Shown here in pieces: positions 3,327 to 11,168 of a stretch of DNA of 57,403 nucleotides; the first letter of the stretch is position 1; every line of letters starts with the position of its first letter. The DNA is from a virus. The notes below the pieces were generated by a model. That model saw only the letters and a program-made list of their open reading frames with translations, was not told the DNA's origin and searched no databases. The position numbers and the translations under genes were made by a program. The stretch covers positions 1-57,403 of the IMG/VR virus record IMGVR_UViG_3300030099_008341; one strand, 5' to 3'.

Positions 3327-3350
3327 ACTATTATTATATCTAAGTTCCTT
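3327..3350 (-). promoter_or_regulatory. early-type promoter (AAGGAACT / TATAAT)
   Basis: AAGGAACT, TAGA, TATAAT and AATAGT precede the ATG at 3326. Confidence 0.6.
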
Positions 3351-3351
3351 A

Positions 3352-3421
3352 CTCCCACCTAGCCTCTCCCTTTCGGGTTGTAGGCGTGAAGATTTTGACG
3401 CCTCGTTAATTGCTAGGAGCA
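3352..3421 (-). ncRNA. putative structured RNA segment downstream of tRNA-like element
   Basis: There is no open frame here. The minus strand can fold into a closing helix (CCTAGC with GCTAGG), a perfect 6-bp hairpin AGGCGT/ACGCCT with a 10-base loop, and CCC-GAAA-GGG with a GNRA tetraloop. The helices fit together as a three-way junction. It may be the 3' part of one transcript with the tRNA-like element just upstream. The function is unknown. Confidence 0.35.
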
Positions 3422-3543
3422 GACCTGGGCAGGATTCGAACCTGCATTCCTTCTATAGACGCACCGGTGCGCGCATCGCGGCGTATGGTACCGTTCGCCG
3501 CTTGGTTTTTTACAGAAGGTCTTCCCTATTAGATGACCGGGTC
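3422..3543 (-). ncRNA. tRNA-like RNA with a large anticodon-loop insertion
   Basis: The 3' part is a canonical T arm (GCAGG TTCGAAT CCTGC) followed by an acceptor strand CCAGGTC. The 5' end GACCCGG pairs with that strand except for one C-A mismatch. A short D arm (TCT/AGA with a GGG-containing loop) follows. CTTCT (3514-3518) pairs perfectly with AGAAG (3450-3454), placed where the anticodon stem belongs. The loop between them is 59 bases instead of 7. The insertion is GC-rich and contains a GCGGCG/CGCCGC hairpin and a GCACCGGTGC palindrome. CCA is not encoded. It could be an intron-bearing tRNA, a decayed tRNA or a tRNA mimic. A TATAAT promoter lies just upstream. Confidence 0.45.
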
Positions 3544-3573
3544 ATATTTTATTCTTATATTATATCAGAGTTC
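3544..3573 (-). promoter_or_regulatory. early-type promoter for the tRNA-like RNA
   Basis: GAACT, CTGA and TATAAT (3559-3564) lie 15 bases before the first base of the tRNA-like element. No real gene start follows, only an 11-codon frame, so the element behaves as a promoter rather than a translation signal. Confidence 0.5.
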
Positions 3574-9912: not shown

Positions 9913-9941
9913 CTTTATTACTTATTGTAGTTTAGTTCGTT
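9913..9941 (-). promoter_or_regulatory. early-type promoter, degenerate
   Basis: CGAACT, AAAC, TACAAT reads on the minus strand ahead of the ATG at 9912. It overlaps the stop of the sigma-factor gene. Confidence 0.4.
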
Positions 9942-11088
9942 ATGATTTAGTATTGAACATTTCAAGTTTTTGTAATCTTAAAGGATTAGTAAGCTTACGA
10001 ATAGCTTTAGCTTCTATCTGTCTAATTCTTTCTCTCGTTACTTCAAATCTATCTCCTACTTCCTCTAGAGTTCTCCTTACACCGTCTAACATTCCAAATC
10101 GCATCTCCATAACACCCATTTCACGATCATTGAGAGACGATACAGCATCAGCAATTTTCTCTCTCATACCATCAAGAGCTTCAATATCAACTCCTTGATA
10201 TTCTTTTTCATCTTCAATAAAGTCAGCAATAGTTGTATTACCATCACCAACTGGCGTTTGCAATGAAATAGGATGCATTGCAACTTTAAGTATAGTCTTA
10301 ACACGACTTACAGGTAAATCGATTTCTTCAGCAATTTCTTCTGGACTAGGCTCACACCCCCCAGCTTGAACTAACTGTCTTTGAATCCTAAATACTTTAT
10401 TAATAGTATCAATCATATGCATAGGTACGCGAATAGTTCTCCCCGTTTCACCTACACATTTAGTAATCGCTTGACGTATCCACCACGTAGCATAAGTAGA
10501 AAACTTATAACCACGTTTATATTCGAATTTTTCAACAGCTTTAATTAATCCAAGATTACCTTCTTGAATAAGATCTAGCAAAGCTACACCTCTATTCGTA
10601 TATTTCTTTGCATTAGCAACTACTAATCTTAGGTTAGCTTTAACCATTTCATCTTTTGCAATTCGTAATTCGCGAAGAGTTTTAATCATTAGAGGCATTC
10701 CTTCTTTAGCAATATCTTCACACCAGCTATCGATAATTGATTGCTTCAAGTAAAATCGCTTATATAAAGTTTTAAGCTTCGAAATAGAATTTCCCTTCTT
10801 CGTTAGCGTAGCAACTAGCTTAGGAAGCCCTTTCATAAACTTTTCCTTAGAATCACTATCAATAGTATCTTCGAATCTTTGTTTACCTTCAATTAGATCG
10901 CAACCCAATCGATTAAAGAGCATTAAAGTATTATCTACTTTACAAAGAATATTAAACGCTTTTTTCTGAGATTTTTCAATTCTTTTAAATATCTCTACTT
11001 CTTGCTCTTTAGTTAAAAGCTCCGTCTGACCCATTTGCTTCATATAGGCGCGTATCGGATCATCTACGCGTTCATTTATTTTAGGCAT
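9940..11088 (-). CDS. RpoD-type (primary-like) RNA polymerase sigma factor (382 aa)
   Basis: This is a sigma-70 factor of the primary or RpoD-like group, which binds host RNA polymerase and selects promoters. I start it at 11088 (MPKINERVDD) because an early-type promoter ends directly before it. Region 1.2 is at about 8-38 (DPIRAYMKQMG), region 2 at 146-222, including the melting and -10 segment FSTYATWWIRQAIT, region 3 at about 245-295, and region 4 at 315-375 with the -35 helix VTRERIRQIEAKA. The residues that read TATAAT in RpoD appear conserved. A short unconserved spacer lies at 60-140; the acidic region 1.1 of large RpoD proteins is missing. It could redirect host polymerase to the TATAAT-type phage promoters, including its own. 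Confidence 0.92.
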   Translation of the reverse strand: MPKINERVDDPIRAYMKQMGQTELLTKEQEVEIFKRIEKSQKKAFNILCKVDNTLMLFNRLGCDLIEGKQRFEDTIDSDSKEKFMKGLPKLVATLTKKGNSISKLKTLYKRFYLKQSIIDSWCEDIAKEGMPLMIKTLRELRIAKDEMVKANLRLVVANAKKYTNRGVALLDLIQEGNLGLIKAVEKFEYKRGYKFSTYATWWIRQAITKCVGETGRTIRVPMHMIDTINKVFRIQRQLVQAGGCEPSPEEIAEEIDLPVSRVKTILKVAMHPISLQTPVGDGNTTIADFIEDEKEYQGVDIEALDGMREKIADAVSSLNDREMGVMEMRFGMLDGVRRTLEEVGDRFEVTRERIRQIEAKAIRKLTNPLRLQKLEMFNTKS

Positions 11089-11113
11089 TATCTTATTATA
11101 TCTGAGTTCCTTT
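11089..11113 (-). promoter_or_regulatory. early-type promoter of the sigma-factor gene
   Basis: AAGGAACT, CAGA, TATAAT and seven bases precede the ATG at 11088. The longer open frame translates this element as KELRYNK. Confidence 0.6.
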
Positions 11114-11168
11114 AGTAATATAATATCTTTTGATACTATGTTCAACTAAAGATTAAAGTTTTTTTTAG

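Follow-up and report, generated by a model that had tools for sequence, protein, structure and literature searches.

The ornate phage RNAs GOLLD, ROOL and OLE form oligomers consisting of RNA only, through kissing loops together with other contacts, and the genes of GOLLD and ROOL often lie near phage tRNA islands, with GOLLD linkers that sometimes contain tRNAs (PMC12286853). The phage tRNAs that evade tRNA-targeting defences are decoding tRNAs furnished with anticodons (PMC10264068, PMC11555353). The locus analyzed here, on the minus strand of a 57,403-nt stretch of viral DNA (the window; positions 1 to 57,403 of IMG/VR record IMGVR_UViG_3300030099_008341), can be compared with each of these systems. 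With GOLLD, ROOL and OLE its RNA shares the habitat and a predicted self-association by kissing loops, which is read here from palindromes; it is unlike them in that they are much larger and have another secondary structure, whereas the tRNA fold is a main domain here, and their Rfam models were unmatched at the window site and at the homologous modules scanned. An anticodon-less tRNA-like domain with extra structure in the place of the anticodon arm is also found in tmRNA (RF00023), but ours is a phage RNA lacking a tag reading frame, CCA and an RF00023 match, and its 3' module is unrelated. The Y RNA-like YrlA (RF02553; bacterial or phage) likewise joins a tRNA-like module to another domain; the difference lies in a score of 14.4 bits compared to a gathering score of 69, and in a Ro-binding stem that is not recognised here. 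The defence-evading phage tRNAs resemble our RNA in the tRNA fold, in a phage that also carries tRNAs and in the plausibility of an anti-defence role, and differ from it in the anticodon, which is absent here. We found no paper describing such an RNA in the open-access literature, subscription papers being outside the scope of the search, and treat it as a new class of RNA that perhaps works like the oligomeric phage RNAs. Comparison of member sequences shows a tRNA fold, a structured arm of variable length where the anticodon arm would be, GC in place of CCA, a 3' module, and loops that change while remaining self-complementary. The locus is probably a non-coding RNA gene that stands on its own and belongs to a widespread class of phage RNAs, one apparently undescribed so far, and the class and its anatomy are, on this comparative footing, very likely as we describe them.

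Results

The locus and its promoter motif

The virus record from which the window comes represents a marine, contractile-tailed phage with genes for a tail sheath, a terminase and a clamp loader, and it encodes a sigma factor of its own (a sigma-70 factor, 9940-11145). Two further genes are unusual cargo for a phage (7761-9182 and 18498-19124), one encoding a DUF1501 protein and the other an iron/manganese superoxide dismutase. ARAGORN and Rfam find only three ordinary tRNAs in the window, located at 11.2-11.5 kb, and one of them is a tRNA-Arg(UCU). The whole RNA unit is predicted to be ~205 nt long (3345..3552, minus strand), with a copy of a promoter motif at either end and no minus-strand entry within 3345..3552 in the ORF list of the window. 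Folding of the unit gives an MFE of -69.8 with z of -2.75, and 1 in 200 shuffles was as good. The copy 5' of the RNA (GAACTCTGATATAAT, 3559..3573, minus strand) predicts a start at ~3552, while the other copy, recovered in the motif scan, begins at the RNA 3' end and is the promoter motif of the next gene (3333..3347, minus strand). With at most one mismatch, the motif GAACTNNNNTATAAT has 20 matches in the window compared to 4.1 expected, a number reached in 0 of 100 shuffles, and it closely precedes many of the minus-strand genes at the start codon. It is possibly a phage-specific promoter giving very short leaders. The preliminary description had placed a promoter in front of the RNA, in good agreement with the motif at 3573-3559 and its enrichment. 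Because the copy at 3347-3333 belongs to the next gene, the RNA is not a leader of that gene.

Another candidate structured RNA, at 6328-6150 on the minus strand, lies behind a copy of the same promoter motif. It consists of AAGUGAGUAUAAACACGGUUAAGC, then a stem that varies yet is paired (CUUCC/GGAAGG in the window, AUAG/CUAU in relatives), then GCCCUCAGAGAA; in the contigs L004-L009, L032, L042, L088, L101 and L111 it occurs upstream of the tRNA-like RNA.

The tRNA-like domain and its replaced anticodon arm

The tRNA-like domain of the window (3421..3543, minus strand) comprises an acceptor, U8, a D arm, a T arm and a discriminator. The acceptor GACCCGG/CCAGGTC (3543-3537 with 3428-3422) forms 6 of 7 pairs and has one C.A mismatch. 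Read directly from the sequence are a 3-bp D arm with GG in its loop (3533-3520), a canonical T arm GCAGG-TTCGAAT-CCTGC (3445-3429) and the discriminator U (3421), and a 3-base stretch, AAU in the reading from 3543 to 3421, separates the replaced arm from the T arm. An encoded CCA is absent; GC stands in its place directly 3' of the discriminator (3419..3420), and position 3419 also opens helix P1 of the module described below. In 6 relatives, 97.6% of cells in the acceptor and 100% in the T stem are paired, double changes included. ARAGORN and Rfam both leave the tRNA-like at 3421..3543 unreported, and Rfam at relaxed threshold yields chance matches only at this site. A tRNA-Glu ancestry of the window domain, suggested by U8 C9 and the short variable loop, was not adopted and is kept as a lead: the likeness was seen by eye, but the class has many tRNA backgrounds.

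The arm in the place of the anticodon arm (3449..3519, minus strand) is built of three helices, namely a closing stem and two hairpins. The 9-bp closing stem CCUUCUGUA/UAUAGAAGG (3519-3511 with 3457-3449) has 5 of its 9 pairs changed on both sides among the 6 relatives, where it covaries to CCUCUAUA/UAUAGAGG. Folding and relatives support both hairpin A, GCGGCG-AACGGUACCAUA-CGCCGC with the palindrome GGUACC in its loop (3478..3501), and hairpin B with a 12-nt palindrome, CGCACCGGUGCG (hairpin at 3458..3477, palindrome at 3471-3460). The arm folds at -31.1 kcal/mol with z = -4.7, equalled by 0 of 200 shuffles. A similar multi-helix arm is predicted for the relatives L008, L010 and L032, and the window arm type represents a small sub-group of 4 sequences.

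The preliminary description, which had proposed that the anticodon loop of a tRNA-like RNA carries a structured insertion, was right about the RNA itself, which is real, lies on the minus strand and has the acceptor, the D arm with GG and the T arm. Of the T arm and acceptor it called canonical, the former is so and the latter carries the one mismatch. The stem CTTCT/AGAAG exists as the middle part of the 9-bp stem, and what was taken as an open 59-base loop is instead a closed arm containing that stem and hairpins A (3501-3478) and B (3477-3458), in accordance with the statement that the insert holds hairpins of its own. The exclusion of a group I intron also stands, given an insert of ~53 nt and no Rfam intron match. 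The anticodon UCU, supposed to arise on loop closure, is not supported, since UCUAU is partly in the covarying closing stem and the class has no shared anticodon; nor is removal of the insertion, the short members being plain hairpins with nothing left to splice out.

The 3' module

The preliminary description had overlooked a second structured half of the RNA, situated at 3419-3352. Covariation and a covariance model define this 3' module (3352..3419, minus strand). It consists of P1 (3419-3412 with 3363-3359 and 3354-3352), followed by AACG; P3, AGGCGU/ACGCCU (3403-3398 with 3387-3382), followed by ACAA; and P4, CCC-GAAA-GGG (3377-3368), followed by AGAG. In the general plan, three to four helices (P1, an optional P1b, P3 and P4) surround strands of constant sequence, AACG, ACAA and GAG, a constancy that is partly due to ascertainment because members were gathered by patterns fixing AACGAG and CUACAA. 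In the alignment of 57 sequences, from which the window and its close relatives were left out, 96% of cells are paired and 253 cells have both sides changed; the covariation score is 0.672, compared to 0.173 for shuffled and at most 0.185 for slid controls. These 57 are merely distinct sequences, as are the 100 viral sites of the association analysis below, and relatives among them are not independent. Covariation is strong in P1, P1b and P4, and P3 is nearly invariant. When P3 was left free in the scan, GCG..CGC was recovered in 47 of 52 matches; of the other five, one has a variant form and four are apparently due to chance. The window copy scores 38.8 bits (E 3e-11) under the covariance model R1, which was built from these members and thus not from the window, and Rfam 15 gave zero family matches to the module in the window or in any member scanned. 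By eye, GUA on the 5' side and GAA on the 3' side beside P1b resemble the bulged-G (loop E) motif.

Distribution and association of the two parts

The first copies of the module located by pattern scans were those of seven related viral contigs and of the isolate Tetrasphaera phage TJE1; later scans located it in more than 100 viral contigs and in 34 genome contigs, mostly of Patescibacteria. TJE1 was the sole convincing relative in a blastn search of members against named phages. It has ~1.7 kb without an annotated gene around the module (L303, HQ225832.1 36876-38602), and in this cultured phage the stretch may hold a longer non-coding RNA. In Patescibacteria the module appears as a lone small RNA. 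A TTGAC..TANNNT promoter lies 31-48 nt before the core in 12 of 19 copies, and in 16 of 19 the core is followed at 37-98 nt by a run of T (TTTTT within 100 nt). A core RNA of Patescibacteria was ruled out: only 4 of 287 genomes (1.4%) have it, with one match each, hence the module is sporadic there. At three Patescibacteria loci, a nearby gene encodes a protein that by eye resembles SecA, probably a matter of local synteny. A sub-class of the module (L150, L164, L173, L207, L258) has a long P1 and a conserved block upstream of it, CGUUAGCUKCRWAAGGGUCUAAWGRC..GUGUYGCGUU; a tRNA-like is unrecognised in it.

A finder that required acceptor, T-arm and D-stem pairing together with GG in the D loop placed a tRNA-like upstream of the module core, at a distance of at most 45 nt, at 59 of 100 distinct viral sites. 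Of 1688 positions drawn at random from these contigs, 13 had one. The gap between the two parts is only ~2-3 nt. Bases beyond the finder criteria are also those of tRNA (U8 in 33, A14 in 31 and A21 in 33 of the 37 arms left after reduction at 80% similarity, the set used for both arm and tRNA-base tests), and covariation is strong in the acceptor, D and T stems. The Rfam tRNA model picks up some members as tRNAs of 116-146 nt, which is independent support for the tRNA reading. After the discriminator (position 73), GC follows in 53 of the 59 tRNA-like members and CCA in none of them. The finder detected no tRNA-like at 41 of the 100 viral sites, nor at nearly all Patescibacteria copies, and the tRNA-like and the module may be separable parts.

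Two further arrangements were seen. In what appears to be a second layout (L146, L172, L283, L288), an anticodon-free tRNA-like ending in ACCA abuts AACGAG and is enclosed by P1; this was read by eye, and MFE folding supports P1 and P3 but the cloverleaf only partly. L112 carries, near 4207-4060 on the minus strand, a tRNA-like with an encoded CCA in which ~90 nt including the palindrome AGUCGCGACU replace the anticodon arm; it lies within a phage tRNA array and is without the 3' module.

Arm variation and palindromic loops

Across the class the arm ranges from ~20 to 175 nt, the short versions being plain hairpins, and in 55 of the 59 tRNA-like members it exceeds 45 nt (51-175 nt), where a canonical tRNA with a short variable loop would have ~22. 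The arm ends pair over at least 5 bp in 27 of 37 members, compared to a mean of 9.9 and a maximum of 18 in shuffled sequences. A hairpin of 5-bp stem and 7-nt loop at the anticodon place occurs in just 1 of the 37, and no anticodon common to class members was found. Some arms contain UUGAUCACC, which resembles the 16S rRNA 3' end; this likeness was dropped as unsupported in most members.

In the context AU-NNNNNN-U(A/G) of the arm loops, 12 of 42 hexamers are palindromic compared to 0.66 expected, with no more than 3 in any of 500 shuffles. The palindrome found there varies by member (ACUAGU, UCUAGA, GCUAGC, CCUAGG, ACAUGU, GAUAUC). The same is seen in hairpin B, where CGCACCGGUGCG of the window is represented in relatives by CGCUCCGGAGCG, CGCUCGCGAGCG and CGCUAGCUAGCG, with the centres changed to CCGG, CGCG and AGCU, and in hairpin A, where relatives have UGCA or GUGCAC. 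It counts against self-association that the window arm comes from a small sub-group and that in L008, L010 and L032 the hairpin-A palindrome is within a tight UGCA loop. Sequence change with self-complementarity kept is the trace expected of kissing-loop pairing between two copies. A blanket test for any palindrome in any arm hairpin (26 of 37, shuffled mean 18.4, maximum 25) was judged weak, and the test at homologous positions was used instead; because of this weaker result, self-association is graded as likely only. On the pattern of the loop sequences, the RNA would thus rather be expected to self-associate than not, into a dimer or larger, by kissing of its palindromic loops.

Discussion

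Based on the comparative evidence, the RNA can be understood as a tRNA turned into a self-assembling block, with an arm of kissing loops and an acceptor fused to a module shared with Patescibacteria, that as dimers or cages engages the host tRNA or ribosome machinery; we advance this overall picture tentatively, as one somewhat short of an even chance. The RNA would be transcribed as one piece from its own phage promoter, would stay unspliced and be unable to decode, and could assemble into a dimer or larger through the palindromic loops of the arm. The tRNA elbow and acceptor would be presented to the host machinery that handles tRNAs, that is, RNase P for the 5' end and possibly the ribosome or defence factors. 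A conserved docking site would be provided by the module. No constant protein neighbour of the RNA was found, the largest shared cluster comprising 5 of 37 loci, so that the RNA probably works by itself or together with factors of the host. The likeliest role, itself quite uncertain, would be that of a decoy or scaffold RNA directed against host translation or a tRNA-targeting defence during infection. The preliminary description's suggestion that the RNA may be a mimic is judged right, and pairing, which it proposed to examine in homologues, is conserved in them.

The main rival, possible if on balance unlikely, is that the tRNA-like is a processing signal only, the ends of which are cut by RNase P and RNase Z so that an active 3' module is set free. 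Tight spacing of the two parts, ~2-3 nt, is well compatible with such cutting, as are the sites without a detected tRNA-like (41 of 100 viral sites) and, in Patescibacteria, the occurrence of the module by itself between a promoter and a terminator. The lack of an encoded CCA suits RNase Z, and tRNA-like ends release RNAs elsewhere. A processing signal would, however, have no need of a long replaced arm with conserved palindromes, and in the apparent members of the second layout, assigned by eye, the tRNA-like is inside P1, so that cutting would break the module. Little probability attaches to the RNA being a short or degenerate relative of GOLLD, ROOL or OLE, or of tmRNA. The common habitat in phage tRNA islands and an apparent self-association by kissing loops as in GOLLD, ROOL and OLE (PMC12286853) speak for it, and the tRNA domain of tmRNA is likewise without an anticodon; yet the Rfam 15 models of GOLLD, ROOL, OLE and tmRNA are all unmatched, and the RNA has ~205 nt compared to several hundred, with the message-like part and CCA absent.

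A cis-acting leader of the downstream gene, such as a riboswitch or attenuator, would account for the strongly conserved, riboswitch-like junction strands and for the position just upstream of a gene, but it has only a slight probability when a promoter motif for the next gene itself starts at the RNA 3' end, neighbours are not conserved, and a T run follows 16 of 19 Patescibacteria copies. The remaining reading, that of a tRNA gene whose anticodon loop is interrupted by a small intron-like insert, which some unknown pathway would take out so that a UCU-reading tRNA results, starts from the insert being exactly in the anticodon arm, the acceptor, D and T arms being tRNA-like and the window phage carrying ordinary tRNA genes. 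The bases of the would-be loop are, however, partly paired in a covarying stem; the anticodon is not shared, and arms range from ~20 to 175 nt, some of them plain short hairpins; the conserved GC and the conserved 3' module come without CCA; and a normal tRNA-Arg(UCU) is already present in the window phage. Removal of the insert would yield no product shared by the members, and an intron is accordingly very unlikely.

A tRNA-like domain of tmRNA without a message region, 64-68 nt long and scoring 49.6-65.5 bits with RF00023, occurs at L007:10530-10597, L005:3069-3133 and L111:6437-6500, in phages of the same group, and a minimal tmRNA mimic is a possible interpretation. An OLE RNA (RF01071, 85 bits) is situated in a phage-type tRNA array at L207:5210-5602.

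Lastly, the self-assembling tRNA-shaped RNA proposed here has importance for the question of why phages carry tRNAs, which are many and the purpose of which is debated: codon compensation cannot explain a large tRNA-shaped class that would be unable to decode. The class is mostly missed by tRNA finders and Rfam. The catalogue of structured RNAs gains a covariation-supported family with members in phages, among them one cultured phage, TJE1, and in Patescibacteria, and the family offers a concrete, testable case of tRNA mimicry and RNA self-assembly in phages.
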